A stretch of 64,000 bases of DNA from Methyloterricola oryzae (GTDB lineage: Bacteria; Pseudomonadota; Gammaproteobacteria; Methylococcales; Methylococcaceae). Location: assembly GCF_000934725.1 (NCBI RefSeq), contig NZ_JYNS01000011.1, positions 1 through 64,000 of the forward strand. The letters run 5' to 3'. The notes beneath the pieces are model-generated. The model saw only the letters and a program-made list of their open reading frames with translations, was not told where the DNA came from and made no database searches. This document shows positions 32,414 through 48,401 of the stretch, in pieces; within the stretch, counting starts at the first letter, position 1; each line of letters starts with the position of its first letter. The position numbers and the translations under genes are program-made.

Positions 32414-33778
32414 ATGCGGACAGAAATACCTACTTCATCGACTACAAAGGCCTGGGCTGAAAACTTGCTTCTGACCAGCGCCATACCAACTGTAGGAATC
32501 CTAATTACCCCGTCCGATCCATTTTTCATTGACGCGCCATTTCCTTGGGTACTTCTTCCTCTTCTGTTGTTGGCGCTTCGTTACGGCACAAACCACGGTA
32601 CAGTCAGCCTATTGCTTCTCGCCACAGCCTATGAAATCGGCCTCTATATTGGCTATTGGGAGCCGACTAAACATTCTCTTTCTTCGCTAGCCATCGGCAT
32701 GCTTCTCATCATATTCATTTGTGGCGAATTTCATGAGATTTACGAGAGACGCATGCATGCGCTTCAGATCAAATACTCGCGGCAAAACGCGCGAATGAAT
32801 GAGTTCGTTCCACTTTATCAGCTATTGAAAAGTTCGCACGCCCAGTTAGAACGGAAACTTGGAGGGCGCTTCATGAGCCTGCGCAAGTCGCTCCAGGAGC
32901 TTCAGTCCCGAATTCTCACATTTTCGTTAGCGAAAGGCCCTCCTCTCGAAGGAATCGCCATGCCAATTCTGGATTTCTTCTGCTTCCACACCAGCACACG
33001 ATCTGCCGCTTTGTATTCAATCAATATCAAAGGCCAACTAATGCATCCAGCCATGGCCTGCTTCGGCAACCCTCGTCCGGTTTGGCCAACGAATCACTTA
33101 TTGCGCGAAGTACTTAGAACGCGCCAAGTCGTAAGTATCCAACCAGACCATTACGATACTGTGGACGGTACTTTATCTATCGTGCCCCTGATCGATGTGG
33201 ACGACAAAATTTGGGCAGTGATCGTCATTAACGAAATGTCCTTATTCGACTTTAACCACCAGACCTTAACCTTACTCGCGGTACTTGGTGGACGCATTGG
33301 AGACCTGATTAGGCGTCGGAACTCGATATTTTCCCTAAGCGAATGCTCCATACAAACGCTTGATACAGCCATCCGGCGAGCCGACTATGAGTTAAGAGAA
33401 TTCAAGTTGCCGTCAGCCATAATCGCTATAACCGTGCCCCCCCATAATCAGGATGATGCCTGTGGGAAATTGCTTGGCGGTGGACGCGGATCGGATGAGG
33501 TGTGGTGTATCAAAAGATACGACGGTTGTCAGATCCTTATTCGCCTCTTACATTTTACAGACGAGCAGGCTCTTGCAAGTTTTTTGAGCAGAAATGGCAT
33601 TCTCGACTCGCTGTCTGCCAGTTCGACGCTCGTTTCAAGTGTTACATGGTGTTTGACCCCCGAACAGTGCCCGGAATCCCTATTGGCCGAGATTACAGCT
33701 ACGCTCAAAATTCCCAGTACGCCGATTCAACCATCCGTCGAGGTTGACAAAGCAAAGTCACGGGCAGAAGTTGACTGA
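32414..33778 (+). CDS. pelD: PelD, c-di-GMP receptor of Pel-type exopolysaccharide synthesis
   Basis: This inner-membrane protein activates Pel polymer synthesis when it binds c-di-GMP. Its 454 residues match PelD length. About four helices lie at 20-115 (WVLLPLLLLALRYG, SSLAIGMLLIIFICGEFHEIYERR), then a coiled linker, a GAF-like domain (about 165-310) and a degenerate GGDEF domain (about 325-445) without an active site. The binding motif RxxD is Arg358-Gly-Ser-Asp361, and a further Arg393 sits 32 residues after the Asp. This is the same spacing as I recall for Arg367/Asp370/Arg402 of Pseudomonas PelD. The gene is AT-rich compared with the flanks. It stands alone: the next gene on this strand is 4.8 kb away. 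The ribosome-binding site before ATG 32414 is weak. Confidence 0.9.
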   Translation: MRTEIPTSSTTKAWAENLLLTSAIPTVGILITPSDPFFIDAPFPWVLLPLLLLALRYGTNHGTVSLLLLATAYEIGLYIGYWEPTKHSLSSLAIGMLLIIFICGEFHEIYERRMHALQIKYSRQNARMNEFVPLYQLLKSSHAQLERKLGGRFMSLRKSLQELQSRILTFSLAKGPPLEGIAMPILDFFCFHTSTRSAALYSINIKGQLMHPAMACFGNPRPVWPTNHLLREVLRTRQVVSIQPDHYDTVDGTLSIVPLIDVDDKIWAVIVINEMSLFDFNHQTLTLLAVLGGRIGDLIRRRNSIFSLSECSIQTLDTAIRRADYELREFKLPSAIIAITVPPHNQDDACGKLLGGGRGSDEVWCIKRYDGCQILIRLLHFTDEQALASFLSRNGILDSLSASSTLVSSVTWCLTPEQCPESLLAEITATLKIPSTPIQPSVEVDKAKSRAEVD

Positions 33779-34002
33779 TTGGGAAGTTACTCATCTCCTT
33801 TCAGAACCGGCCGCGTAAAATTGGATCGACGGTTAAGAGGGTGTGGACAAATAATATACAGTCGGACCTGCAAAACTCAGACCGCGAAAGCATTCCGATC
33901 GGAGTTCGAATCGACATCCCGACCAAGAATTTCCGCGGATAGTGCAGACACCCATCGCAGAAAATCGAGCCAAAAAATGGGTTTGATCAGGCCGGAGAGG
34001 AT

Positions 34003-34392
34003 GGCCTTAGCCACTAGCACCTGGGCCAGAAGACCGGTGGTCGGTAGCCCCTTGTCGATGACATGGGCCGGCGCCGGCACCTGGACCAGCGTTTCGCAGT
34101 GAAGGCAGACACACTTGCCGCGGATGTGGCGCTCGACGCTGAAAGTGCCGGGGGTTTAGTCCAGCTTCTCGGCGATCCGCTTCAGTTCACAGCCGCAGGC
34201 ACAATGCGTGGAATCTGGCTGGTAGTGGATCTCCCGGCGCGGTAACTCGGGCGGCAGCGGCCGGCGCTTCGGATTCTGTTTGGTGATGGTTTTGTCATCG
34301 CGCGCCACCCCGGCAACTGAGGCCTCGGGCTCTCTGCAAGCATCCACCACCTGCCATTTTAATTCGGCGCTGTGCTGCCGCCGGGTGCGCTT
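34003..34392 (-). pseudogene. IS66-type transposase remnant: tnpA start fused to tnpC zinc-finger region
   Basis: Read leftward, the sequence starts KRTRRQHSAELKWQVVDACREPEASVAGVA, the N terminus of an IS66 TnpA. It passes directly into KRRPLPPELPRREIHYQPDSTHCACGCELKRIAEKLD, stop, TPGTFSVERHIRGKCVCLHCETLVQVPAPAHVIDKGLPTTGLLAQVLVAKA, the zinc-finger part of TnpC. An internal deletion has removed the end of tnpA, all of tnpB and the start of tnpC. A TAA replaces the Tyr codon after KLD. The TnpC similarity ends at about 34003. It is a dead relic. Confidence 0.85.
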
Positions 34393-34540
34393 ATTACTCC
34401 GGCCACTATTATCCGAACCGATGCTCGGTCGGTAATTTTGTAGTTTCAGTCAGTTAGGTCAGAAACCTGTGCGCTTTATTGCGGCCGGAGTAATAGTGTA
34501 TTCGGCCATAGTGTCCGCCAAGAAAATAAGTGGACACTAT
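34392..34540. repeat. Two short inverted repeats beside the IS66 relic
   Basis: TATTACTCCGGCC (34392-34404) is matched exactly in reverse complement at 34483-34495. ATAGTGTCC (34508-34516) is matched at 34532-34540. They abut the relic and may be ends of other, now deleted, insertion sequences. Confidence 0.55.
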
Positions 34541-34733
34541 CCTGCACGCTTACCTCATTGCCTCACAGATTACTTTGCCGGACGGATAATCAATTTCGGC
34601 AGAAATCTCAGTGCTTACGCAACCTGCAGAGTTTTTCCAGAGACGACTACTTATTGTCAATTAAAATCACCGTCTTCATTCATACGATTGCCCTGCACTT
34701 CCACACGAATTGGTATAGACCAAAAATGTTGGC

Positions 34734-35729
34734 TCAAACGTTGTATATCTGTGGCTTATAGTCAGACATATTCCCCGCTATCCACTCCATGGTCTTTTTC
34801 AGGCCCATTTCCAGACTTGTAAGGCTTTCCCATCCTATCGTCTTTCGTGCAAGGTCTGCATTAGCGATTAATTCATAGACCTCACTATTACGCGGCCGAA
34901 GTCGAGTGCTTTCAACTTCTACTGTCGGCGAACGCCCTAAAATCTGGAACGCGACATTCATCAATTCACCCATGGTTACCCCAGTCCCACTCCCAAGATT
35001 CAAGGTCAGGCCTTCGACATCCGAGGCTGTTGCTGCGAGTATAAATCCACGTACGGTGTCTCCCACATAGTTCATGTCTCTAACTGGCTCCAGAGAACCA
35101 GTCCTGACAGTATTACCGCTAAGCGCTTGCGTGAGTATGGTTGGGAGAAATGCACGAGCTGACTGTCGTGGACCATAGGTATTAAAGGGTCGGACAATCA
35201 CCACCGGTAATTCAAAAGATCGCCAATAGGATTCGGCAAGCTTGTCCGCGCCTATTTTGCTGGCGGAATATGGTGATTGCCCCTGTAGTGGATGTTTCTC
35301 ATCGATAGGTGTATACAGAGCTGTACCATAAGTTTCACTTGTTGACGTATGTAGCAGTCGAGCAACACCATTCTTCCTACATGCTTCCAAGACGTGAAGT
35401 GTGCCCCGTACATTGGTTTCTACATATTCTGCTGGCGCAAGATAGGAGTAAGGTATTGGAATGAGTGCTGCCAAGTGAAAAACTATTTCGGCTCCCTTTG
35501 TTATGCGATCTACGAAGTAAGGGTCACGAATATTTCCAGCATACACTTCGATCTGGGATCTTATGCTTTCTGGAAGGCGCTCCAGTTGCCCCCAATCGTT
35601 TCTTGAGTTATATGTAACTAAAGCTTTTACGCTTGCTCCCTCCTTCACCAACGCTTCAGTCAGGTGACTGCCAATAAAACCGCCGGCGCCAGTAACCAGG
35701 ACCCTTTTCCCGGTAATTTTTTGAGACAT
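34734..35729 (-). CDS. legB: LegB-like NAD-dependent nucleotide-sugar 4,6-dehydratase
   Basis: This cytoplasmic SDR of 331 residues has a Rossmann motif (VLVTGAGGFIGSHLTEALV), a Tyr-x3-Lys pair in PYSASKIGADKLAESYWRSF and the catalytic stretch LLHTSTSETYGTA. Features recalled for LegB dehydratases are YNSRNDWGQLERLP, HLAALIPIPYSYLAPAEYVETNVRGTLHVLE, FNTYGPRQSARAFLPTILTQ and the C-terminal YKPQIYNV. LegB makes a 4-keto-6-deoxy amino sugar from (GDP- or UDP-)GlcNAc on the way to legionaminic or bacillosamine-type sugars. No legC, legI or legF follows, so the product may feed another polymer, possibly the Pel-type one. ATG 35729 has GAGGTG at ideal distance; a GTG at 35738 is an alternative. Codon use is AT-rich. 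Confidence 0.82.
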   Translation of the reverse strand: MSQKITGKRVLVTGAGGFIGSHLTEALVKEGASVKALVTYNSRNDWGQLERLPESIRSQIEVYAGNIRDPYFVDRITKGAEIVFHLAALIPIPYSYLAPAEYVETNVRGTLHVLEACRKNGVARLLHTSTSETYGTALYTPIDEKHPLQGQSPYSASKIGADKLAESYWRSFELPVVIVRPFNTYGPRQSARAFLPTILTQALSGNTVRTGSLEPVRDMNYVGDTVRGFILAATASDVEGLTLNLGSGTGVTMGELMNVAFQILGRSPTVEVESTRLRPRNSEVYELIANADLARKTIGWESLTSLEMGLKKTMEWIAGNMSDYKPQIYNV

Positions 35730-35816
35730 AATTGCCACCTCATAAAATTGATATATAAATAAGTAATCCTAAAACACTGCCTTACTGAAGTGCGGGGTAT
35801 GCAGGGCTCACGGCCA

Positions 35817-36005
35817 TTAGCAAATAATGACCAATTGACAGCCAACTTGTGCAACATCCAGATTCATCGCTCTCAGGATGTCGGCCGTGTCCCGGGCCGA
35901 CTCGGGGTCGTCAAAAAATGCGAACAGCAGGCCGGCACTGCGATGGATGGAACCATGGTGATGCCGGATGGCTGAAACGGCCGCTCTTTCCGAACCTGTA
36001 TTCAC
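35817..36005 (-). CDS. Small hypothetical ORF, possibly a gene fragment
   Basis: A 62-residue frame reads SAIRHHHGSIHRSAGLLFAFFDDPESARDTADILRAMNLDVAQVGCQLV. Its GC-rich codon use is unlike the AT-rich DNA around it, which suggests a piece of a backbone gene. I do not recognise a family and no ribosome-binding site is obvious. It lies between glmS and legB and could be a remnant left at an insertion boundary. Confidence 0.3.
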   Translation of the reverse strand: MNTGSERAAVSAIRHHHGSIHRSAGLLFAFFDDPESARDTADILRAMNLDVAQVGCQLVIIC

Positions 36006-36056
36006 GACACATGGACCTGTTTTCGCTGACGACGACTGAAAAGCTCATCGCTCTGC

Positions 36057-37898
36057 TTACTCGACGGTGACGGACTTAGCGAGATTCCGCGGCTGATCGA
36101 GATCGGTGCCGCGCAACAGGGCCACGTGGTACGCCAGAAGCTGCAAGGGAATGCTGTACACGATGGGGGCGGTCAACTCATCGACTTCAGGGAGCCGGAT
36201 GACCTCGATGCCAGTCAAGCCGCTCAAATCCGTTTCCCGACTCGCCAGCACAAAGATCTGCCCACCGCGGGCGCGAACCTCCGCCAGGTTGGAATTCAGC
36301 TTCTCCGCCAGTCTGTTGTTGGGTGCGAGGGCGATGACCGGCATACGTTCATCCACCAGGGCGAGCGGCCCGTGCTTGAGTTCGCCAGCCGCAAAGCACT
36401 CGGCATGGATATAGGAAATCTCCTTCAGCTTCAACGCGCCTTCCATGGCCACCGGGTACATCGCTCCGCGCCCCAAATAGATCGCGTGTTCGCACAAGGC
36501 GATGCGTTGTGCCCATTGCCGGATCGCAGTCTCCAGGCGCAACGCGGTGACGATCTGTGTACGCAACTGACGCAAGGCGGCGGAGGCTAACCGCTCCATC
36601 AGGCCCGGGTGGCCGGGCCGGAATCGACAAAGAGCGAGGACCAACAGCGCCAGGCCGGTCAACTGCGTGGTGAAAGCCTTTGTGGATGCAACCCCGATTT
36701 CCGGCCCGGCTTGGGTCATGAGGGAAGAAGCCGAAGCTCGCACCAGCGAGCTTTCGGCCACGTTGCACAGAGCCAGAGTGTGCACGTACCCCAACCGCTT
36801 GGCCAGGGAAAGCGCGGCCAGCGTGTCGGCGGTTTCGCCCGACTGGGAGATGCTGACGAACAAGGTGCCCGGTGGCACCACCAGATCACGGTAACGGTAC
36901 TCGCTGGCGACTTCCACCGTGCACGGGATTCTGGCCATGGCTTCGATCCAGTGGCGCGCAATCAGGCCCGCGTGGTAGCTGGTGCCGCAGGCAACGATAT
37001 GCACGCCGCGGGTTCGTCTAAGAGCCTCCCAGGCGCTGGCTTCAAAGGCCACATCCAGAAGACCCGCTTCGTTCAAGCGACCGTTCAGGGTTTGCGTCAC
37101 GGCTCCCGGTTGCTCGTGGATTTCCTTGTGCATGTAATGGCTATGCCCGGCATGTTCGCAGGCATCGGCATGCAGGTTCACCTCCTTGACCGGGCGACTG
37201 GTCGGAATGCCGGCCTGATCATGGACTTCCACGCCTTCGCGCGTGAGCACGGCGATGTCCCCATCCTCGAGAAACAGGAAGCGGCGGGTCTCCCGCAATA
37301 AGGCAAACACGTCCGATGCCATGAAGTTCTCCCCTTCGCCCAGGCCGATGACCAGGGGACTGCCGAAGCGGGCGGCGACCAAACGGTCGGGTTCGGGAAC
37401 GGCAATCACCCCGATGGCATAACTGCCGGAGAACAGGTTCGTGGCAGCCCGCACGGCCTCTTCGAGCGTATGCCCCTGCTCGAGGAAGTCCTGGATCTGG
37501 TGCGCGATGACCTCGGTGTCGGTGTCCGACGTGAATTCAAAGCCCCTGTTCTGGAGCTGGACACGCAGTTCGTGATGGTTCTCGATGATGCCATTGTGCA
37601 CAACGGCGACCGACGCCCGCGACAGATGCGGGTGCGCATTGCGTTCTGTCGGTACGCCATGTGTCGCCCAGCGTGCGTGGGCAATTCCCGCCAGGCCGCC
37701 GCGAGGAACCGGATCGGTCGCGATGCGCTGCTCCAGCTCCTTCAGCTTTCCCACGCTGCGCTTGCGCCAAATCTGCCCCCTGGCATCCAGGACCGCGATG
37801 CCGGTGGAGTCGTAACCCCTATACTCCAAGCGACGTAGTCCCTCTACAAGAATGGGTGCAATTTGTCTCTGCGCTATTGATCCGACTATCCCGCACAT
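36057..37898 (-). CDS. glmS: Glutamine-fructose-6-phosphate aminotransferase (isomerizing)
   Basis: GlmS makes glucosamine-6-phosphate, the first step to UDP-GlcNAc. Its 613 residues are full length. The glutaminase domain begins with Met-Cys2 (MCGIVGSIAQRQ; Cys2 is the nucleophile), with RLEYRGYDSTGIA, ARWATHG and HNGIIENHHELR. Two SIS domains follow (VACGTSYHAGLIARHW, SISQSGETADTLAAL) and the C terminus DQPRNLAKSVTVE is conserved. It is GC-rich like the backbone although its neighbours on both sides are AT-rich. It may be the original chromosomal glmS around which the island was built, and it supplies amino-sugar precursor that a Pel-type polymer would need. The usual neighbour glmU is not in the window. 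Confidence 0.96.
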   Translation of the reverse strand: MCGIVGSIAQRQIAPILVEGLRRLEYRGYDSTGIAVLDARGQIWRKRSVGKLKELEQRIATDPVPRGGLAGIAHARWATHGVPTERNAHPHLSRASVAVVHNGIIENHHELRVQLQNRGFEFTSDTDTEVIAHQIQDFLEQGHTLEEAVRAATNLFSGSYAIGVIAVPEPDRLVAARFGSPLVIGLGEGENFMASDVFALLRETRRFLFLEDGDIAVLTREGVEVHDQAGIPTSRPVKEVNLHADACEHAGHSHYMHKEIHEQPGAVTQTLNGRLNEAGLLDVAFEASAWEALRRTRGVHIVACGTSYHAGLIARHWIEAMARIPCTVEVASEYRYRDLVVPPGTLFVSISQSGETADTLAALSLAKRLGYVHTLALCNVAESSLVRASASSLMTQAGPEIGVASTKAFTTQLTGLALLVLALCRFRPGHPGLMERLASAALRQLRTQIVTALRLETAIRQWAQRIALCEHAIYLGRGAMYPVAMEGALKLKEISYIHAECFAAGELKHGPLALVDERMPVIALAPNNRLAEKLNSNLAEVRARGGQIFVLASRETDLSGLTGIEVIRLPEVDELTAPIVYSIPLQLLAYHVALLRGTDLDQPRNLAKSVTVE

Positions 37899-38589
37899 CT
37901 TGCCTCCGCATGAGCTTCAATGACCTAGCCGCCTCGCAATCTGGACTCAACGCTGAGCAACGCAAGGAAGCCTAGCCTTACTCGATTAGATACCAAGCAT
38001 CGTGAGTATCCGCTTATTGTGACGGTACTGTGGGGGTCCCCTCCAAAAAAGATTAAACGATATTTTTGTAACTCCTTGTGTACCCTTCAAATGATACATT
38101 TCTACGTCACACTAGCTTACCAGCGCGAAAGTCAGTCGATGAGTCATGACGCAAGCTTCACATTGTAACAGTTATGTGACAACGCCTAAGTGCTGCTATA
38201 GATGACCGCAAGGTTTTCACGTACCCACGAGCCAAATAATATTTCCTGCTTTTCAATAAACAATACGTATCCATACGTGCAAAGAAAATAATCCAAGAGT
38301 AAACATCTATGCGGTTACTTTCTTAGTCGAATTAATACGTAATTGTACGCTGTCTTGAGAACTAATCTAGTGTTTTTATGCGTCCATAGTTGCTTCGGAG
38401 TTTAACTTGCTTTGATCTTAGTGTGTGTGTAGCGACGGAGATGTGCGTAGCGTAGCTGGAAGGAATACCCAATTTATATCAAAGTGTCGGCTCTATCCAA
38501 GTCAGGAGAACATCAGTGTGTTTTTTTGGATGCATATCTATCTTGTTTAAAGGTACTTTGACTTCAATGCTTTACAGAGGAGAGTGAAC
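37899..38589. promoter_or_regulatory. AT-rich intergenic region upstream of the pelEFG-containing operon
   Basis: In 691 bases no convincing gene is seen. It must contain the glmS promoter (left) and the promoter of the rightward operon. The operon ribosome-binding site, GAGGAGAG, is at 38577-38584. I checked for a c-di-GMP riboswitch fold and found no recognisable core. No sigma-54 site was seen. Confidence 0.45.
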
Positions 38590-39306
38590 ATGCATGCAGT
38601 AATTCTGGCTGGCGGCAAGGGTACTCGCCTTCGCCCATATACAACGGTTCTTCCCAAGCCGCTTATGCCTATCAGCGATATGCCAATTATTGAAGTTGTC
38701 CTTCGTCAGCTTAAATCTGCCGGGGTAGAGAAAGTAACGCTCGCGGTCGCCTATTTGGCTGAGTTGCTCGAAGCCTTTTGTCTAGACGGCTCACGCTTTG
38801 GATTGGATATTAGTTATTCTCGAGAGGCTAAGGAGCTTTCCACGGCTGGCCCTCTAAAACTGATTGACGGATTGGATGATACGTTCCTTGTGATGAATGG
38901 AGATCTTTTGACGACGCTCGATTACAGAAAGCTACGCGATTTTCATAAATCTGAAAATGCCGCAGCCACTATCGCCGTACATCGACGCACGGTGAAAATT
39001 GACTTTGGCGTAGTTAAGACTAATGGACATCACCTCTTGGATAGCTACATTGAGAAGCCGGAGTTTGACTATCGAGTGAGTATGGGCATTAACGTTCTCG
39101 AACCGAGGGCGTTGAAGTATATTGAATATGAAGAAGCTCTGGGGATGCCGGACTTAATGCTTCGCCTAAAAGATGCAGGAGAAAAGGTTTGTACCTACGA
39201 GGAGCCGTGTACGTGGTATGATATTGGTCGAATTGAGGATTACGATCTCGCCGTGGATGGGTTCTGCAAAAAGCGCTCGGATTTTCTGCATTGCAATGGT
39301 GGGTGA
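38590..39306 (+). CDS. Sugar-1-phosphate nucleotidyltransferase
   Basis: This cytoplasmic enzyme joins a sugar-1-phosphate to a nucleoside triphosphate. The 238 residues show the signature GxGTRLRPxT at the start (AVILAGGKGTRLRPYTTVLPKPLMPI), the metal-binding Asp in TFLVMNGDLLTTLDY and a later VSMGINVLEPRAL. The fold is the bare catalytic domain without the C-terminal beta-helix of GlmU/RmlA-long forms and without the CBS domains of PtmE. The sugar and nucleotide cannot be decided; guanylyl- or uridylyl-transfer to an amino sugar or mannose is possible. ATG 38590 has GAGGAGAG 5-6 bases upstream; GTG 38584 is less likely. It is the first gene of the operon that ends with pelG, and an epimerase follows 8 bases later. 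Confidence 0.86.
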   Translation: MHAVILAGGKGTRLRPYTTVLPKPLMPISDMPIIEVVLRQLKSAGVEKVTLAVAYLAELLEAFCLDGSRFGLDISYSREAKELSTAGPLKLIDGLDDTFLVMNGDLLTTLDYRKLRDFHKSENAAATIAVHRRTVKIDFGVVKTNGHHLLDSYIEKPEFDYRVSMGINVLEPRALKYIEYEEALGMPDLMLRLKDAGEKVCTYEEPCTWYDIGRIEDYDLAVDGFCKKRSDFLHCNGG

Positions 39307-39314
39307 GTACATCG

Positions 39315-40229
39315 ATGGATATTTTGGTTACAGGCGGTACCTCGTTTACTGCTAGGTACTTATTGCCGGAATTAATAGAGAATTTCCCGTCAGCGCAAAT
39401 CACGGTAACGGATAAGTGCCCTGGCGCCCAACTGCCATATAATATTTCTTACGTAAACGCGGATCTTCGAGAGCGGGTGGACATAGATCGGCTGTTGGCG
39501 GGGAATGGGCCAGAGATTATTTTTCATTTGGCAGGGTATGGCGGACGGGACGCCAATCGATGCTTCGAAGTGAATTTGGGTGCCACACGTAACCTAATGG
39601 AGGCAGCTGCGTCGCTCGATGTTAAGCCTAGGATACTTCATGTCTCAAGTGCTTCTGTGTATGGAGTGACCGAGCACCGGGAGTCCCCAGTCAAAGAAAT
39701 TGCGCCGCTTAGGCCGGTTGCTTCGTATGGTGCGAGCAAGGCTGCGGCCGAATTGGCCGCATTCACGTATTTCTACCAATACAGGTTACCGGTAACCGTC
39801 GTCCGTCCATTCAATCTCATTGGACCGGGGCTTCCCTTGGGACTTGCGCCAGCTGATTTCTTGGCCCGGCTTAGAAACATTCAAGCAAATCAGCGCGGTG
39901 GTGTGCTTTCGGTGGGGAATTTGGATTCCGAGCGAGATTTTGTGGATGTTAGAGACGCTGTTCGAGCCTACGTGGCACTTGTCGAGTGCGATGATGTGTG
40001 GGGGCATCCGTTTAATGTGGCTTCGGGAGTCGCCGTTTCGATTCGAACTATAGTAGAAAGTTTTATTGACCTTATTGGGCTTCATGTCTCGATTCATCAG
40101 GACCCTACCTTTAAGCAGCAGGTTGAAGTTGCAAGCCAAGTGGGGGATTTCACTAAGCTGAGAGAACTCACTGGCTGGGCTCCACGTTTTAGTTTGCAGG
40201 ATTCATTACGCGATATGGTCTGCGAATAG
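39315..40229 (+). CDS. NAD-dependent epimerase/dehydratase (extended SDR)
   Basis: This nucleotide-sugar modifying enzyme has 304 residues. The cofactor motif is LVTGGTSFTARYLLPEL (its third Gly position is Ala, a variant of GxxGxxG), with the catalytic Ser/Tyr/Lys in LHVSSASVYGVTE and PVASYGASKAAAELAAF. VVRPFNLIGPGLP and ERDFVDVRDAVRAYV are typical of the GDP-sugar reductase/epimerase branch (RMD/GalE-like). It probably changes the sugar made active by the gene before it, for instance by 4-epimerisation or 4-keto reduction; Pel polymers need GalNAc made by a 4-epimerase. ATG 39315 follows the previous stop by 8 bases, so translation is coupled. Confidence 0.84.
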   Translation: MDILVTGGTSFTARYLLPELIENFPSAQITVTDKCPGAQLPYNISYVNADLRERVDIDRLLAGNGPEIIFHLAGYGGRDANRCFEVNLGATRNLMEAAASLDVKPRILHVSSASVYGVTEHRESPVKEIAPLRPVASYGASKAAAELAAFTYFYQYRLPVTVVRPFNLIGPGLPLGLAPADFLARLRNIQANQRGGVLSVGNLDSERDFVDVRDAVRAYVALVECDDVWGHPFNVASGVAVSIRTIVESFIDLIGLHVSIHQDPTFKQQVEVASQVGDFTKLRELTGWAPRFSLQDSLRDMVCE

Positions 40230-40333
40230 ACCTTTATCCAGGGATGTATTCTTTGATAAGCGTGACGCCCGATGGCCGTAATGTTGGGAAGTCGTCCGGG
40301 GCAATTCTCCCGCTTGTGGGTTTGGAGGTCGCT

Positions 40334-41971
40334 ATGACTATTCATTCGTACTCTCTATCCAATCGACTGCTATTCTGGGCTTTCGGCGGGATACTTATGA
40401 TTATTGTCCTGCTTTTGGGTAGCGCCTCTTCTTCAATTGGTCAAGGAGAGGGACAACAATTGGCTGTGCCGGCTTATGTTCATCCAATGCAGGATCCTCG
40501 AGCGTGGGACCGCATTATTGAATCCGCGCCCGGCAAGGTCGGAATTGTAGTGGCCAATGTTCTCAATGGGCCCGATTATCGACCTACCGACTACTGGACT
40601 GCGGTTATTCGTCGCGCGCATTCGTCAGGGATTCGGGTATTGGGATACGTCGATACGGGCTATTTCGGTACCACTGGCCTTACGACTCGCTTGGGGACTA
40701 ATTCGGCTGCGGACTGGATGGCGCAAGCGCAAAGGGATATCTCGGCGTGGTATGAGTTTTATGGGTCAGATATCGACGGAATTTTCTTCGATCAAGGCCA
40801 GAATGCTTGTGGCCCAACAGAGGATTCTGAGGACTGGGTCGAACTGTATCGACACCTCAACCACTATGAGAAGGAGAATCACCCGGGGGCGCTCACCGTA
40901 GTCAATCCTGGCACCACGGTTCCCCAATGCTACGAAGACGCCGCTGACGTTCTTTTGACATTCGAAAGCAGTTACGCAGCTTACGTTGGGAGCGACCCCA
41001 ATTCTGCGTTGAACTACCGCGAGCCTGATTGGGTGCCTCAGGATCCCTATAAGTTCTGGCACATCATTTATGGAGCATCGTTGGAACAAATGGCGTCAGT
41101 TATTCAGTTGAGCCAATTGCGTCACTCCGGTTATGTTTATGTTACCGATGACGTGATGGAGAATCCTTACGATAGTGTGCCTGAATCACTCTTTTGGGAG
41201 AATGAGCAGGCGCTAGTATTTGGCACGGGCATCGAGGTCTCTGATGGAGCCCCGGTTTCGAGACTTTGGTGGTCGTCTCCCCGACGATCGCCGAATCTGC
41301 TCGCGGAATCAACAGATTTTACCAGTACTGAGTTGTCATGGGGCGAGCCTGAGTCATGGGAATTCTTCAGTCCAGCGGTAATCGCCTTTGACATTTATGC
41401 CGATGGGGAGAAGATCCTCTCCTTACCCGCTTCGACCCATCGCGTTCGGGTCGGCGGCTTGATGCCAGATACGACCATGCACTTCTCCTTGTCGGCGAGA
41501 GACATGCGCGGGCGGTCAACTGAGCAGAGTAATATCGTGACAGTCACAACCTTGCCACTCCCTGACGGTAACCCCCTCTTGGAGGCGACAGTCGTAAGAA
41601 GTTCGACGAGCCTCACCTATCGAGCGAAGTTCTTGTTACCATTTTCTTTTTACCGCGTCTTTATTTCAACGGGCAATTCCGCTCATGCTTGTTGGTGGAC
41701 TGGAAGTACTCCACAAACCTGCGCAGATTTCGTAATTGAAAATGGACGTTTGTTACGTTACGCGGGGTCGGATGGCAGTTGGACATGGGAGCTGGTTTCA
41801 CGAGTGGTTCCGTCAATTGACGGCTACTCCCATTCTTGGACGATCAGTCCGAGTGATCTAGGGTCGGTTGATGGATCAGGGGTCGCAACATTTAACGCCG
41901 AGGGCTACGCGCCCGTCGTTTGGGCCTTTGCCAGCGATGAGGCCGGTAGTGAAGGTTTAGGACAAAACTAA
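40334..41971 (+). CDS. Membrane-anchored spherulin-4/GH135-like glycoside hydrolase with C-terminal FN3-like domain
   Basis: The 545-residue product has an N-terminal signal anchor (about 11-31, LLFWAFGGILMIIVLLLGSA) and then a (beta/alpha)8 spherulin-4 domain (about 42-300). The catalytic residues of this fold are visible: Asp in SDIDGIFFDQG, Asn in LTVVNPGTT and Glu in VLLTFESSYAAY. Sph3 (GH135) and the related PelA hydrolase domain (GH166) cut galactosamine-rich polymers, so this protein may stand in for PelA. A fibronectin-III-like module (about 330-430, VRVGGLMPDTTMHFSLSARD) and an unassigned beta-rich C-terminal domain follow. No deacetylase domain is present. ATG 40334 has GGAGG close upstream. 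It lies in one strand-run with the epimerase and pelE, probably facing the periplasm. Confidence 0.84.
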   Translation: MTIHSYSLSNRLLFWAFGGILMIIVLLLGSASSSIGQGEGQQLAVPAYVHPMQDPRAWDRIIESAPGKVGIVVANVLNGPDYRPTDYWTAVIRRAHSSGIRVLGYVDTGYFGTTGLTTRLGTNSAADWMAQAQRDISAWYEFYGSDIDGIFFDQGQNACGPTEDSEDWVELYRHLNHYEKENHPGALTVVNPGTTVPQCYEDAADVLLTFESSYAAYVGSDPNSALNYREPDWVPQDPYKFWHIIYGASLEQMASVIQLSQLRHSGYVYVTDDVMENPYDSVPESLFWENEQALVFGTGIEVSDGAPVSRLWWSSPRRSPNLLAESTDFTSTELSWGEPESWEFFSPAVIAFDIYADGEKILSLPASTHRVRVGGLMPDTTMHFSLSARDMRGRSTEQSNIVTVTTLPLPDGNPLLEATVVRSSTSLTYRAKFLLPFSFYRVFISTGNSAHACWWTGSTPQTCADFVIENGRLLRYAGSDGSWTWELVSRVVPSIDGYSHSWTISPSDLGSVDGSGVATFNAEGYAPVVWAFASDEAGSEGLGQN

Positions 41972-42052
41972 CTGATGGCTGTCTGCGCAAACCCTTTGCT
42001 GAGCCTTGACGCAAACGCCGCACCCACGACAGCTATTTAAGACTAAAGAAAT

Positions 42053-43120
42053 ATGATGGCCTGGGCAAACCGTGTCAAAAGAGGTGCCCCGCCCTTTAGC
42101 TGGGCACCGCTATTGATGGCAATTGCGGCGCTGTACCTGGATGCTCAAGCGGTCTCCGCATTGCTTGAAACTCCGCAAGCGAGACTTGCGTATACTCAGG
42201 CAATCCTTCTCGAGCATGGCGTTGCCGCGGTTCTGTTTAGCTTGGGAATGTTGGGTCTTCTTCCTTCTAACTATCGCCCTTCGCTGTTAATGGGCGTACT
42301 ACCTTTTTTCAGCGTCGCCTTCTTTCTTTCCATTCTAGGAATGTTCGGGACAGCTGTAGTGTTGCTATTGTCATCAAGGCAACGGGCGAGCTCTGAAGCG
42401 GTGGAAGTTTTCATTGATCGTTACCCACGGCCGGAACTTGAACCAGTTCTTGCGGGTACACGCCAGGGCAGGCAAGAGCTCGACTCAGCGAATCTAGTTG
42501 GAATATTGTCACGCTGTGAGGAGCCCACCGGTAGACTCGCCGCAGTAATTTTCACCATGAAATTAGACAACAAGAGCGCCGTAAGTTTACTGCGGCGCGC
42601 CTTAAAGGATCCGGCCGAAGATATCAGACTGTTGGCCTATGCTCTGCTGAGTCGACGCGAGAAGGCGCTTTATAACAGGATAGATTGGCTGAATTCTAAA
42701 ATTTCGTCTCCAGTTCAAGAGGCTAACCATGCCATGTTGCATCAGGGATTGGTTAACGCGTATTGGGAACTCGTTTACGCGGGTTTGGCTGAAGGTGAGG
42801 CTGCCAACTTCCTTCTGGAGCGAGCTCGACAAATCGCTCTGGTTGGCCTACAACACTTCTCAATGTCATCAGGTCTTTATTTTCAATTGGGACGAATTTT
42901 ATTACTCCAGGGTGAATTAGATCACGCCTATTTGGCATTCTCAAACTCACAAAGATTTGGTAGTGACGAGCGCAAGATACAACCCTATATAAGGGAGATT
43001 GCGCAAAAAATGAATATGCTAACAGAGCGTAGGAGTAGTTTTGATTCAGTAATATCCAGTTGGCAACCACAACTCTCAGCTGCTTCCGGATACTGTTACC
43101 CGGTGAGGGGCGAAAAATGA
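42053..43120 (+). CDS. pelE: PelE, inner-membrane TPR-type component
   Basis: The 355-residue protein has two N-terminal helix pairs (PLLMAIAALYLDAQAVSALL; LLMGVLPFFSVAFFLSILGMFGTAVVLLL, about 70-105). A long helical, TPR-like cytoplasmic part follows (about 120-335; SAVSLLRRALKDPAEDIRLLAYALLSRREKAL, LYFQLGRILLLQGELDHAYLAFSNSQRFG). In Pseudomonas PelE bridges PelD and PelF in the synthase complex. Position between a PelA-like hydrolase and pelF, topology and length support PelE; similarity at this protein is always low. Its TGA overlaps the pelF ATG (ATGA), so translation is coupled. The ribosome-binding site is weak (AAAGAAAT). Confidence 0.87.
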   Translation: MMAWANRVKRGAPPFSWAPLLMAIAALYLDAQAVSALLETPQARLAYTQAILLEHGVAAVLFSLGMLGLLPSNYRPSLLMGVLPFFSVAFFLSILGMFGTAVVLLLSSRQRASSEAVEVFIDRYPRPELEPVLAGTRQGRQELDSANLVGILSRCEEPTGRLAAVIFTMKLDNKSAVSLLRRALKDPAEDIRLLAYALLSRREKALYNRIDWLNSKISSPVQEANHAMLHQGLVNAYWELVYAGLAEGEAANFLLERARQIALVGLQHFSMSSGLYFQLGRILLLQGELDHAYLAFSNSQRFGSDERKIQPYIREIAQKMNMLTERRSSFDSVISSWQPQLSAASGYCYPVRGEK

Positions 43121-44628
43121 AAGGCAGCAATCCGATCGCTGATATTACCTTGGTTCTTGAAGGCACCTATCCATTTATGAATGGCGGCGTTTCGCATTGG
43201 GTTCACCAATTGATTTCAGGACTTCCTCAATTTACGTTCTCTCTGATCTTTTTAGGTTCGACCGAAGAGAGCTATAGTGGCCTTCGCTTCAGATTGCCAG
43301 ATAATGTCACTCACTTGCAGTGCTTCTATTTGTGGGGTAACGAGGAATTCGAGACTCCTAGAGAGCGAAGTGGGAATGTCGATAACTTTGCTGTCGTCGA
43401 ACACCTTCATGATTGGTTTCGCTCCAAAGGAGATTTTTGCACCGCACCTGTTATCGGACATTTTCTTCGTGAACTAGCCAACCCCAAGGGACGCGCCATT
43501 GCCGACTTTTACTTCAGCAACTCTGCATGGCACTTTATTTGCCAACGGTATTCCGAATCAAAATGCCGTCATGCGAGCTTCGCCGACTACTTTTGGACTG
43601 TTCGCATGATGCACGCGCCGCTCTTGAAGCTAGCGCGGGGAGCGGCCTCAATTCCGCGAGGTAGAGTCGTTCATTCGGTGAGCAATGGCTACGCTGGGTT
43701 TCTCGCGGTTGTGTTAAAGCAGTTGCAGGAAATCCCGTTTATGCTCACCGAGCATGGAATCTATTCGAAGGAGCGTAAAATTGATTTGCAGTCCTCGTAC
43801 ATTGAAGACTGCGACGATTTGTTTAGCGATCCTCCACCGCACGGGATGCAAGAACATCGCTACATGTGGATTCGTCATTTCGAGGGACTGAGTCGTTTTG
43901 TGTACAGTGAAGCAAATCCCATCCTGAGTTGTCACGAAGGAAATCGGCGCCGCCAAGTGAAGGACGGCGCTGCAGATGAGCGCACACACGTTATTCCGAA
44001 TGGCATAAACCTTACAAATTATGTCGCGCTTCGCTCAAAGCGGCCAGAGAAGATTCCTATGGTTTTAGGCTTGATAGGGCGTATGGTGCCGATCAAGGAC
44101 ATCAAAACTTTCATCAGGGCTATGCGCGTCGTTGCAACCCGACTGCCGGCCGCGGAGGGCTGGCTTATCGGTCCGGAAGCGGAAGATCCGAAATACGGGG
44201 ACGAGTGTCGTCAGTTGGTTGCCAATCTAGGGCTAGAGGCTAATGTTCGTTTCTTAGGATTCCAGGATCTGGATACTATTTTCCCGCAGTTGGGGCTGTT
44301 GGTCCTGACTTCGATTAGTGAGGCGTTCCCTTTAGTGTTGTTGGAAGCGTTTGCCACCGGCGTTCCCGTGTTAACGACCAATGTCGGCGCATGCCGAGAG
44401 ATCATCGAGGGTAACACTGCTGAAGACAAGGCCTTGGGCAGTGCAGGAAGTGTCGTGCCAATCGCTGACCCGGAAGCCACCGCCGAAGCAGCGATCGCGC
44501 TCCTTACCGATGAGACTCGGTGGAAGGCGGCGCAACGTACCGCTATCGAAAGAGTAGAACGCTATTACTCTGAGCCCCGGTTTCTTGGCGCATATGGAGA
44601 GGTCTATCAGGCCGCTTTGGGGGATTAA
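43117..44628 (+). CDS. pelF: PelF, cytoplasmic glycosyltransferase (GT4) of Pel-type polymer
   Basis: PelF polymerises UDP-sugars (UDP-GalNAc in Pseudomonas) on the cytoplasmic face. The 503 residues start with ADITLVLEGTYPFMNGGVSHWVHQLISGLP, the PelF signature. FMLTEHGIYSKERKIDL and HVIPNGINL lie in the middle. The GT4 C-terminal half has IGRMVPIKDIKTFIRAM, FLGFQDLDTIFPQLGLLVLTSISEAFPLVLLEAFATGVPVLTTNVGACREII, with the expected E-x7-E type motif. Length equals known PelF. ATG 43117 has GAGGGG upstream and overlaps pelE by 4 bases. pelG starts directly after the stop. AT-richer codon use than the backbone. Confidence 0.95.
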   Translation: MKGSNPIADITLVLEGTYPFMNGGVSHWVHQLISGLPQFTFSLIFLGSTEESYSGLRFRLPDNVTHLQCFYLWGNEEFETPRERSGNVDNFAVVEHLHDWFRSKGDFCTAPVIGHFLRELANPKGRAIADFYFSNSAWHFICQRYSESKCRHASFADYFWTVRMMHAPLLKLARGAASIPRGRVVHSVSNGYAGFLAVVLKQLQEIPFMLTEHGIYSKERKIDLQSSYIEDCDDLFSDPPPHGMQEHRYMWIRHFEGLSRFVYSEANPILSCHEGNRRRQVKDGAADERTHVIPNGINLTNYVALRSKRPEKIPMVLGLIGRMVPIKDIKTFIRAMRVVATRLPAAEGWLIGPEAEDPKYGDECRQLVANLGLEANVRFLGFQDLDTIFPQLGLLVLTSISEAFPLVLLEAFATGVPVLTTNVGACREIIEGNTAEDKALGSAGSVVPIADPEATAEAAIALLTDETRWKAAQRTAIERVERYYSEPRFLGAYGEVYQAALGD

Positions 44629-46008
44629 ATGGCCGGAATTGGGTTCGAACTGCGTAAGCTTCTGGAAAGCGGCACCTATCTCGGAGTTGTGAAGGCCTAT
44701 GGTTATGCCGGGCTAATCAGCGCTGGCCCCTGGGTACTATCCATATGCGGTGTTTTTGCCATCGGACTGATTCGGCTCGATGCGCGTAGTGCCGGAACTT
44801 GCATGCAACAATTTCAAGTCTCAGTAACTTATCTTATTGTATCATCCTTCATTGTTACTAGCCCCGTCCAACTTACTTTTACCCGCTTTCTCGCTGACGA
44901 AATTTTTAAGAAAAATGAGTCAGAGATTGCTGCCAATGTAACCGGTGTTCTTACATTTGTTTTTCTGATCAGCGGAATTCTTGCGTCGCTGGCAACATTT
45001 TTGATCTTAGAGGAATCACTGCTATATCGCCTTGAGATGATCAGTGGCGTCGTGGTACTCTCCGGGACGTGGATCGTCATGAGTATAGTGTCGGCAATAA
45101 GGGAATACATGCGGGTTTTAGTTGGCTTTCTTCTCGGGTACAGTACATCAGTCGTCTCAGCGTTTGGATTTCGGAACGAAGGACTCGAAGGGCTGCTGGC
45201 TGGGTATTTAATTGGACAGTTATTATTGTTTTTTTATTTACTATTGTTAGTATTTCGCCGCTTTCCGGCTGATCAGTTGATACGAATTGATTTCCTGGGG
45301 CCAAGTGCGTTCTATCCGCGCTTGGCACTGATCAGCGCATTTTTTTCAATGGGGATGTGGGTGGACAAGTTCATTTTCTGGTGGAACCCGCATACTAGCG
45401 TTCCTGTAATTGGCCCCCTGCGTGTTTCCGACATATACGACTTACCAATTTTTTTGGCATACCTTTGCATTATTCCAGGCATGGCTTCTTTCCTAGTGCG
45501 TGTAGAAACCGACTTTGCCGATAGGCATAAAGCTTTTTTTGACTCACTAGAGGGAGGGGCCTCTTTGGCTGAAATCACTGCGCTTAGAGATGATATGGTC
45601 GACTCAGTTAGGCGTGGATTGAAGGAGATTCTAAAGATTCAGGGTATGTCTGTTATTGTAATATTTGCCACGGGTCCTCAACTGCTGGACCTGTTTGGTA
45701 TACCGAACTTATATCGTATTCTGCTGAACGTTGACGTTGTGGCTGTTAGCGTACAGGTGATGCTGCTGGCTCTTCTGAACTTCCTCTCGTACCTGGATTT
45801 ACAACGTGCCATGTTGAAGCTCGGAATGTTCTTTTTCTGTACCAACACGGCCCTGACTGGGGCTACCCAAGTGCTGGGTCCGTCCTTCTACGGATACGGT
45901 TTCGCTCTTTCGGTAATCGCAACTACCTTGCTTGCCCTAACTGTGTTGTCCGATGGATTGAATCGCCTCATATTTCGAACTTTCATGCTCCAGAGAGTCG
46001 TTCTTTAG
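44629..46008 (+). CDS. pelG: PelG, Wzx-like polysaccharide membrane transporter (3' end altered by IS)
   Basis: This 459-residue inner-membrane protein has about 12 helices, related to MATE/MOP flippases, and exports or supports the growing Pel chain. MAGIGFELRKLLESGTYLGVVKAYGYAGLISAGPWVLSICG is the PelG signature; ADRHKAFFDSLEGGASL and GIPNLYRILLNVDVVAVSVQVMLLALLNFLSYLD are also characteristic. It starts one base after the pelF stop. The stop codon TAG is made of TA plus the first G of an insertion sequence terminal repeat. If the element is removed and one TA restored, the frame continues 11 codons (YVRNQTRHYSR) to a TAA at 48952-48954. The truncated form may still work, because all helices remain. 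Confidence 0.94.
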   Translation: MAGIGFELRKLLESGTYLGVVKAYGYAGLISAGPWVLSICGVFAIGLIRLDARSAGTCMQQFQVSVTYLIVSSFIVTSPVQLTFTRFLADEIFKKNESEIAANVTGVLTFVFLISGILASLATFLILEESLLYRLEMISGVVVLSGTWIVMSIVSAIREYMRVLVGFLLGYSTSVVSAFGFRNEGLEGLLAGYLIGQLLLFFYLLLLVFRRFPADQLIRIDFLGPSAFYPRLALISAFFSMGMWVDKFIFWWNPHTSVPVIGPLRVSDIYDLPIFLAYLCIIPGMASFLVRVETDFADRHKAFFDSLEGGASLAEITALRDDMVDSVRRGLKEILKIQGMSVIVIFATGPQLLDLFGIPNLYRILLNVDVVAVSVQVMLLALLNFLSYLDLQRAMLKLGMFFFCTNTALTGATQVLGPSFYGYGFALSVIATTLLALTVLSDGLNRLIFRTFMLQRVVL

Positions 46009-46198: not shown

Positions 46199-47699
46199 TT
46201 ATGCGGCGGCTGGTTTCCAGTTATGCGGTAGCAGACTGCCGATATCTCTTTGCTTGGTGGTCGGCAGGCGGTTGAGCACGTCCTTCAGGTAGGCCTCCGG
46301 GTTGAGGCGCAGTGCCTTGCAGGTCTGGATCAGGCTGAACACCGTGGCCGCTGCCTGCCCCTCGCGGGGCGAGCCCAGAAACAGCCAATTCTTGCGGCCG
46401 ATTGCCAGCGGGCGGATGGCCCGCTCGGAACAGTTGTTGTTGATCTCCAAACGACCGTCCTCGGTGTAGCACTGCAACGCCGGCCAGTTTTTCAGGGCTA
46501 ACCGATGGCCTTGGCCGCAGGTGACTTGGGCGCCAACTCGCGCAGGCGGTCCTCCAGCCAGTCCTTGAACTGACTCAGGATCGGCCGGGCTTTTTCCTGA
46601 CTGGGCGGACGAATGCCCTCGGCATCCAGTTCCAAGTCTTTGGCCTCCTGTTCGATGCCATACAGTTGACCGATGAAGCCCAGGGCGTCATGGGCACTGA
46701 TGCGCTTACCCTGCTCGGCCTGTCGGGCAATCTCGAAGAATTTCCTGCGCGCATGCGCCCAGCAGGCCACTTTGGCGATCTTGTCATCGGCGAAGACCTA
46801 GTCATAGCCCGCATAGGCGTCCGCCTGCAGGTAGCCGCTGCAGTCCTCCAGCCTACCCTTGGGGTGCTTGCCCGCCCGCGTCTCGGTGTGGTCGTAGACG
46901 ATGATCGACGAGGAGTGACCGGCATAGATCCAGAACCGTGTCTCGCGGGTCTTGCCCCGGTCTTGAACCGCCACAGTGGTGTCGTCGGAGAAAATCACCG
47001 CCTGCCGCCGCTTGAGCAACACCAGCAGCCGGTCGCTCAGCGGCTTGAGGGCCACGCCGCATTGCAGCACCCAGTCGCACAGGCTGGTGCGGGCGATGGG
47101 AACACCCTGGTGGGTGAAGACTTGCTCGATGCGGTACAAGGGCAGGTGATAGCCGAACTTGGCCATCAGCACATACGCCAACACCCCGGCAGTGGGATAC
47201 CCTGTTCGCTCACCTGTGCCGGCGCCGGCGCAGTATCCAACGGTCCTTGGCACTTGGTGCAGGCGGACTTCTCGCAGCGCGTCTCGACCACCTTGAGCTG
47301 TGCGGGCACGTAGTCCAGCCGTTCGGAGCTCTCGTAGCCGATGACGGGTCGCTCTTCGCCGCATGCCGGGCAAGCCCGTTCCTTGGCCGACAGGGGCACC
47401 ACCACGATCTCGCGCGGCAGATGTTCCGGCAAGACTACGCGCTTGGGTTGCCCTTTGGCCGGGGATTTCACCACCGTCTTGAACTCCACCGGGCTGGCGA
47501 GCGGGAGGTCTTCCGGCTGTTCATCCCAGAGAGGCATTTGCGCCGGATCAGGCAGGGTCTGCAAGCGTTCCGAGCGGGCACCGAAGATCAGCTGCTTGAG
47601 CTTCGCCATCTCGAATTCCAATTATTCGATGCGGCCGTCACGCTCCGCCAAAGCCGCTTTCAGGGTCGTGATTTCTTAGGCGAGGGCAGTTGCATTCAT
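46199..47699 (-). pseudogene. tnpC: IS66 transposase TnpC, multiply disrupted
   Basis: The ATG at 47699 starts MNATALA followed by a TAA; a second TAA falls just before LEFEMAKLKQLIFGARSERLQTLPD. The zinc-finger region (CPACGEERPVIGYESSERLDYVPAQLKVVETRCEKSACTKCQGP) is followed by a frameshift at about 47200. The DDE core continues in another frame (LCDWVLQCGVALKPLSDRLL, IFSDDTTVAVQDRG, DAYAGYD) up to an in-frame TAG at about 46798-46800. A one-base deletion near 46500 shifts the frame again before LEINNNCSERAIRPLAIGRKNWLFLGS. It cannot make an active transposase. Confidence 0.9.
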
Positions 47700-47764
47700 G
47701 GTCCTATGACACCCGCCGAAAACCGCCAAGCCCCTTGTTTCATGGGGCTTGGCAAGCCATTCCA

Positions 47765-48106
47765 TCAGCTCACCCGCCCCGCCCGAACCTCACGAAGACG
47801 CCGCACCGACAGATCCACCCCCTCCAGCAACAACAGCAGTTCCGAACGCGAAATCGACGCCGTCAGCGGCCGGCGAAAAACGACCCTTCTCCAGACGCTT
47901 GTAAGCCAGCCAGAAGCCATGCCGATCTCATCACAGCAGCTTCACTTTATCCCCACCGCGATTGACAAACACATAGACCGATACCGACAACGGCGAAGCC
48001 CCCAGGCTGGTTGCCACCGCCAGCGCCAACCCATCGATCGACTTGCGCAAGTCCAACGGCTCCGCCACCACGTACACCGCGCTCACACTCAACAGCGTCG
48101 TCAACA
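47765..48106 (-). pseudogene. tnpB: IS66 accessory protein TnpB, frameshifted
   Basis: The N-terminal half reads SAVYVVAEPLDLRKSIDGLALAVATSLGASPLSVSVYVFVNRGGDKVKLL, typical of TnpB (IS66 Orf2). It meets a TGA where the family has YW. After small insertions/deletions at about 47915-47940 the remainder continues in another frame through FWLAYKRLEKGRF to SRSELLLLLEGVDLSVRRLREVRAGRVS. Exact breakpoints are approximate. Confidence 0.8.
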
Positions 48107-48401
48107 CGACGACAACGCCGCGACGACCCGACGCAGCAGTTTGCTATCGAAGTCTTGCGCCACTTCGATGCTGGCACCGCCCACCACGATCCGCAGCCCG
48201 ACTGGTTCAGGTGCCTCGTCAACGACCGGAATCAACGTCAACAAAGCCAATGGCGACTCGCTCTGCACGCGACGACGCCAATAGCTGAACGTCCCATACG
48301 CCACCCCCCGCATGCCGGCACCAGGCCCGCGCCGACAATCCACTGACCGAATACTCGGCCAAGCGCCGCTTCCAATAATTCCGACGTTCTTCGAATGTCA
48401 T
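48101..48401 (-). pseudogene. tnpA: IS66 accessory protein TnpA, frameshifted
   Basis: The ATG at 48401 begins MTFEERRNYWKRRLAEYSVSGLSARAWCRHAGG. The frame then breaks near 48300 and continues in another frame as VAYGTFSYWRRRVQSESPLALLTLIPVVDEAP...DFDSKLLRRVVAAL. Together these give the normal length of a TnpA of IS66 elements. It lies upstream of tnpB as usual. Confidence 0.8.

Follow-up and report, generated by a model that had tools for sequence, protein, structure and literature searches.

A secreted GH135 glycoside hydrolase gene inside a Pel synthase locus of Methyloterricola oryzae, and an apparently bipartite Pel-type system

The pel operon of Pseudomonas aeruginosa runs pelABCDEFG, with pelD and not pelA directly upstream of pelE. 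The fungal GAG cluster of Aspergillus consists of uge3, sph3, gtb3, ega3 and agd3. In bacteria, agd3 operons that carry GH114 genes have been described; those of Gram-negatives also include genes for the Pel outer-membrane components, and spherulin-4 genes are mentioned only in some of the actinobacterial ones (PMC7229062). Among the enzymes of these systems, Sph3 acts specifically on poly-GalNAc and liberates no products from native Pel. PelAh tolerates GalN, and native Pel, which is partly deacetylated, is cleaved by the GH114 enzyme Ega3 (PMC9135694; PMC12054363). Here we analysed a stretch of 64,000 nucleotides (the window) from the methylococcacean Methyloterricola oryzae, contig NZ_JYNS01000011.1 (C11), in which a GH135 gene stands beside pelE (Table 1). 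The genome has no single contiguous pel operon: PelD, PelE, PelF and PelG are encoded on C11, and the PelA hydrolase and the outer-membrane exporters PelB and PelC on a second contig, C14. The Pel system looks bipartite because pelDEFG lies in the window and a lone GH166 hydrolase gene, pelB and pelC lie on C14.

Table 1. Features of the window around the GH135 gene, with the evidence for each (positions are those of the window)
Feature	Positions	Strand	Evidence or remark
pelD, c-di-GMP receptor	32414..33778	+	PelD_GGDEF E 1.1e-5; alignment
LegB-like NAD-dependent sugar dehydratase (SDR)	34734..35738	-	TIGR04180 415 bits, below cut-off 475
glmS, glucosamine-6-phosphate synthase	36057..37898	-	Pfam SIS + GATase; native GC3 0.75
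Sugar-1-phosphate nucleotidyltransferase	38584..39306	+	PF00483 117 bits
SDR-type nucleotide-sugar epimerase/dehydratase, candidate precursor enzyme	39315..40229	+	PF01370 140 bits
Secreted GH135 (Sph3/spherulin-4) hydrolase gene, FN3-like and C-terminal beta domains	40334..41971	+	intact, 545 aa
N-terminal hydrophobic helix (residues 11-28), either a signal peptide or an anchor	40364..40417	+	sequence; helix in model
GH135 barrel, residues 43-285	40460..41188	+	Pfam Spherulin4 PF12138; fold match to Sph3 5d6t
Catalytic Asp D153 codon	40790..40792	+	aligned with Sph3 catalytic Asp; invariant in 36 sequences
Active-site Asn N191 codon	40904..40906	+	aligned with Sph3 Asn; invariant in 36 sequences
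Catalytic Glu E211 codon	40964..40966	+	aligned with Sph3 Glu; invariant in 36 sequences
FN3-like domain, residues 321-404	41294..41545	+	PF00041 E 0.047, below cut-off; phmmer FN3 matches; model strands 332-403
C-terminal beta domain, residues 415-524 (about)	41576..41905	+	model; no Pfam match
pelE	42053..43120	+	position and similarity to pelE of L034, L038, L045, L047; no Pfam equivalog
pelF, GT4 polymerase	43117..44628	+	NF038011 PelF 634 bits
pelG	44629..46008	+	PF16933 459 bits

The window gene encodes a real GH135 (spherulin-4/Sph3) enzyme. It starts with ATG behind a good ribosome-binding site (GGAGG, 40324-40328) and is the only GH135 gene found by a profile search of the whole M. 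oryzae genome. The Pfam Spherulin4 profile matches it with E 6.8e-37 (127.7 bits, cut-off 30.2), and phmmer matches the protein to Sph3 of Aspergillus clavatus (5d6t/5c5g, E 2e-5). An AlphaFold2 model with pLDDT 80-96 in most barrel blocks had Sph3 as its top-ranking Foldseek match and superposed on Sph3 with Z 27.1 (2.1 Å over 229 residues), far ahead of the next entry (Z 17.4), of GH191 chains (about 15.9) and of PelA (13.5-13.6); GH114 chains were not among the matches listed, which excludes nothing. Given the far poorer fit to PelA, we rejected the assignment of the gene as a PelA-like GH166. D153, N191 and E211 are among 15 invariant columns in the alignment of GH135 sequences, and in the model D153 and N191 stand at the ends of barrel strands 149-153 and 187-190, with E211 in strand 206-213. 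At the position following the catalytic Asp, where the family has Glu almost without exception, the window protein and its Streptomyces and Embleya homologues have Gln, and an Acidimicrobiaceae homologue has Glu. The earlier note on this DNA had read the gene as a GH135-like spherulin-4 hydrolase with the Asp, Asn and Glu of the fold and a signal anchor, and had proposed superposition on Sph3 and PelA as the check; the cleft is present, the Sph3 fold is clearly preferred, and a hydrophobic N-terminal helix is there. Both of the tail domains it described, one of them FN3-like, also appear in phmmer searches or the model, the FN3-like domain remaining sub-threshold by HMM.

The C-terminal beta domain, which when modelled alone reached a mean pLDDT of 56, is common to homologues from Streptomyces sp. 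SID3343 (L009) and Embleya hyalina (L010), with 33-35% identity. In a tree of catalytic domains the window enzyme is sister to an Acidimicrobiaceae enzyme (support 99/96), and this pair falls inside a clade with the Streptomyces and Embleya enzymes (100/99), apart from the proteobacterial GH135s. The FN3/C-terminal tail is therefore typical of a GH135 lineage found mostly in actinobacteria and is no Pel invention. The GC content of the window gene is 52%, as compared to 62-71% in the actinobacterial relatives or their loci, so the gene is unlikely to have come recently and directly from an actinomycete of high GC. These closest relatives have no pel genes nearby. The closest full-length architecture, that of Embleya hyalina (L010, 4156-16000), follows a sugar ABC transporter and is accompanied by GH4-like and sugar-catabolism genes identified by eye, which suggests a degradative role there. 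Two GH135s of the sample, L002 and L036, are identical over the catalytic domain, one from a genome of the host family and the other from Methylococcaceae.

The surroundings of the gene are those of a Pel synthase. The earlier note had placed it directly upstream of pelE, which begins 81 bp beyond its stop codon, and the SDR gene, the GH135 gene and pelE are on the same strand. PelD carries R358, D361 and R393, an RxxD and a distal Arg spaced as R367, D370 and R402 of P. aeruginosa PelD, which are needed there for c-di-GMP binding (PMC2170427). A PAS-GGDEF protein whose GGDEF motif is intact (29457-30851, minus strand, by eye) is encoded 1.6 kb before pelD and is a possible source of its c-di-GMP. 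PelG is present in one copy in the genome by profile search. All window pel genes and the GH135 gene lie in a low-GC island (31000-46000, GC 0.44-0.53, with about 0.60-0.66 around it). The GC3 of the island genes from pelD to pelG, GH135 included, is 0.42-0.55, except for glmS, which keeps native GC in mid-island; that of the nearby host genes glyQ and glyS is 0.85-0.87. Only one of 38 genomes of the host family, that of M. oryzae, has a strong PelG match, a distribution in line with lateral gain of the island. Directly after pelG (46575-48300) are IS66-type transposase-like ORFs, recognised by eye from their translations, that may mark a mobile island edge. Promoter and terminator scans over 38-46.7 kb gave nothing above chance.

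GH135 genes beside pel genes are not confined to M. oryzae. We gathered 46 GH135 loci by similarity to the window protein alone, without regard to pel. In seven of these, pelF and pelG lie no more than 10 kb from the GH135 gene: five are Burkholderiales-type (L034, L038, L045, L047, L048) and two are from ammonia-oxidising archaea. In the Burkholderiales-type loci GH135 comes after pelG, and four of the five genomes, the four with a GH166 match, have a full-length PelA, whose gene precedes pelB in those that were checked. Since these genomes combine GH135 with a complete PelA, the presence of GH135 does not depend on the loss of CE21, the deacetylase type of PelA. In one of the loci pelG is followed by a tandem pair of lipoprotein-like GH135 genes (L034:9509-12068). 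The archaeal loci, from Nitrosotenuis and Nitrosotalea MAGs (L044:4095-13129 and L023:4018-10879), are compact and Pel-like, in the order pelF, SDR, pelG-like, ATP-grasp and then one or two GH135 genes. Their PelF-type GT4 (DUF3492) scores 106-118 bits and their pelG-like gene 29.9 bits in L044 (cut-off 29) and 23.4 bits in L023; a limited literature search found no paper on such an archaeal locus. The GH135-pel association probably arose more than once, since these lineages carry different GH135 clades. Within a sample of the class, GH135 occurs in 5 of 369 genomes and in 2 of the 24 with PelG, far from pel in one of the two, so this sample is by itself no basis for a verdict on linkage.

This recurrence bears on whether the enzyme serves the polymer of its own host. 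It might instead be an actinobacterial-type enzyme for scavenging or defence that came in with the island, breaks down GalNAc polymers of foreign origin such as fungal GAG or the Pel of other bacteria, and has no part in making the cell's own polymer. In favour of this explanation, the enzymes most closely related to it are secreted proteins, mostly of actinobacteria, that carry the same tail and are encoded away from pel genes, and the Embleya gene follows its transporter and a GH4-like gene. The close, co-directional placement of the window gene between the SDR gene and pelE argues against it, as does the reappearance of GH135 beside pelFG in Burkholderiales and archaea with other GH135 clades, and we regard it as unlikely.

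The second locus was reached through a genome search for GH114-like barrels. On C14 the gene order is GH114 and a 1523-residue secreted protein, both on the minus strand, followed on the plus strand by the PelA hydrolase, a TPR protein, the PelB barrel and PelC. The GH166 PelA hydrolase, about 276 residues with no deacetylase part, matches PelA 5tcb with E 1.7e-60 and is about 40% identical to Giesbergeria PelA, with the active-site Asp and Glu kept. PelB is split into the TPR protein and the barrel protein (PF24604, 175 bits), and PelC is 38% identical to Giesbergeria PelC. The GH114 protein scores 272 bits. A further galactosaminidase-type gene, with a GH114 score of 295 bits, lies amid housekeeping genes (G000:C2:444553-445206; L078:8401-9243), is 60% identical to that of C14 and brings the GH114 genes in the genome to two. 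The GC3 of the C14 locus is 0.60-0.74, as against 0.42-0.55 for the pel locus of the window; the two loci differ in base composition and were therefore not gained together.

A PelA-type deacetylase was found in neither locus. A CE21 profile made from three PelA deacetylase domains, with the divergent B. cereus-type PelA deacetylase left out, gave no match over the M. oryzae genome (100% complete, 0.26% contamination); this and the other genome-wide absences rest on profile searches. The same profile was positive in 18 of the 20 other genomes of the class with strong PelG, one of the two misses being a genome only 67% complete, and also in two control genomes of Burkholderiales that had supplied part of the profile. 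A two-domain PelA (GH166 plus CE21) was not found in the genome, where GH166 stands alone on C14, and the absence of the deacetylase half noted earlier from the window thus extends to the whole genome. Four generic CE4 deacetylase genes are present, none of them in the window or on C14, and are possible alternatives.

The 1523-residue protein on C14 is a candidate divergent Agd3/CE18-like deacetylase. It has cadherin/Big_9 repeats followed by CBM87_Agd3 and Agd3_CE regions; Agd3_CE and CBM87 score 23.6 and 26.7 bits, each slightly below the cut-off of 27.6. It aligns over 722 columns (31% identity, E 8e-91) with a homologue that is above the Agd3 cut-off. Like other members of the family, it has the DD, HxxxH and C-terminal His motifs (HVDD, HTYTH, YPHYFH) that are assigned to catalysis in Agd3 (PMC7229062). 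A PDB search with the CE18 region returned nothing useful, and with the full-length query cadherin repeats only. Agd3_CE matches occur in 4 of the 21 strong-PelG genomes. In one proteobacterial cluster (L116, G193:C44:383000-402000) GH114, pelG, pelF, a PelA with CE21 and an Agd3-like CE18 are found together, the Agd3-like gene directly adjoining pelA; both deacetylase types can therefore coexist. In M. oryzae the CE18-like protein probably stands in for the missing CE21, we infer; if it does, the absence of full-length PelA does not mean the absence of deacetylation. The earlier note had left two alternatives, a polymer that stays fully acetylated or one deacetylated by another enzyme, and the second has now gained a concrete candidate.

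The first of these alternatives, in the form of a largely N-acetylated, neutral Pel of which GH135 is the main editing hydrolase while the CE18-like protein serves something else, would fit a genome with no CE21 and an enzyme suited to acetylated polymer. It also has a parallel in the Pel of Streptococcus intermedius, inferred to be neutral, which Sph3 cuts and Ega3 does not (PMC12345266). However, the gene for the CE18-like protein is transcribed divergently from those for the PelA hydrolase, PelB and PelC and adjoins GH114, a type that acts on deacetylated polymer, and the Agd3-like gene of G193 sits within a pel cluster; we consider a neutral polymer improbable, slightly more so than scavenging. 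That GH135 has replaced the PelA hydrolase, as its description in the earlier note as occupying the PelA position would imply, is very improbable and was set aside: the gene adjoins pelE and the window has no pelA, but C14 carries, ahead of pelB and together with pelC, a lone GH166 in which the catalytic Asp and Glu are kept, and two GH114 genes are present too.

We favour, as rather probable, a role for the window gene as a secreted GH135 endo-alpha-1,4-N-acetylgalactosaminidase in a bipartite Pel-type exopolysaccharide system in which CE18 probably replaces CE21; the gene identities, the GH135 fold, the catalytic motifs and the content of the genome are established, and the substrates, the location, the cooperation of the two loci, the CE18 replacement and the order of action are what we infer. 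The window locus would be the inner-membrane half, with the PelD switch, PelE, the PelF polymerase, PelG, the probable precursor genes and GH135. The C14 locus would be the envelope half, with the lone GH166, the split PelB, PelC, GH114 and the Agd3/CE18-like deacetylase. Under the control of PelD and c-di-GMP, PelF and PelG would make and translocate poly-GalNAc. Because Sph3 is specific for poly-GalNAc, GH135 by analogy most likely trims the polymer while it is still N-acetylated. CE18 would then deacetylate it in place of CE21, GH166 would trim mixed stretches and GH114 deacetylated ones, and PelB and PelC would export the polymer, the combined hydrolases giving chain-length control and release. 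From the substrate preferences of Sph3, PelAh and Ega3, the genome would thus hold a hydrolase for each acetylation state as well as a candidate deacetylase. The fuller proposal, to which we lend a little less than even credence, is that the CE21 half of PelA was lost and its function taken over by an Agd3-type CE18, with GH135 adapted to acetylated polymer, GH166 to mixed and GH114 to deacetylated polymer in a Pel-GAG hybrid spread over two loci.

If this is true, one bacterium has the Pel synthesis and export machine together with a counterpart of each of the three enzymes that process GAG in fungi. That would support the proposal, discussed in PMC7229062, of a bacterial origin for the fungal cluster, and it would make testable the question raised in PMC12054363 of why four galactosaminidase families exist in bacteria. 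Already known, from a report of 2020 (PMC7229062), are agd3 operons that combine GH114 with genes for the Pel outer-membrane components. New are the position of a GH135 gene within the Pel synthase locus of a Gram-negative bacterium, the division into two mutually complementary loci, and a lone GH166 together with a CE18-like protein and no CE21; in the open-access literature we found no paper describing GH135 adjoining pelEFG.

Compared with the fungal GAG cluster, the window enzyme has the Sph3 fold and catalytic triad, and M. oryzae also has counterparts of Ega3 (GH114), Agd3 (CE18-like) and a GT4 polymerase. It differs in that polymerase and transport are the bacterial PelDEFG and PelBC, the genes form two loci, and GH135 bears FN3-like and C-terminal domains. 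The C14 locus has the same parts as the bacterial agd3 operons, namely an Agd3-like CE18, GH114, pelB and pelC; it differs in that the PelA hydrolase is encoded on its own, pelDEFG lies on C11 and GH135 accompanies pelEFG. With P. aeruginosa pelABCDEFG, M. oryzae shares homologues of PelB to PelG and the PelA hydrolase domain; unlike P. aeruginosa, it has its pel genes split over two loci, has no CE21, and has GH135, GH114 and a CE18-like protein in addition. In the Gram-positive pelDEADAFG operon of B. cereus (PMC7112168) the halves of PelA are likewise on separate polypeptides, but there the deacetylase half is kept in the operon with the hydrolase beside it, while M. oryzae keeps the hydrolase half and the PelA-type deacetylase is gone. 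The Burkholderiales pelABCDEFG loci resemble that of M. oryzae in having GH135 in the pel locus, and differ in that their GH135 follows pelG, belongs to another clade and is accompanied in most cases by full-length PelA.
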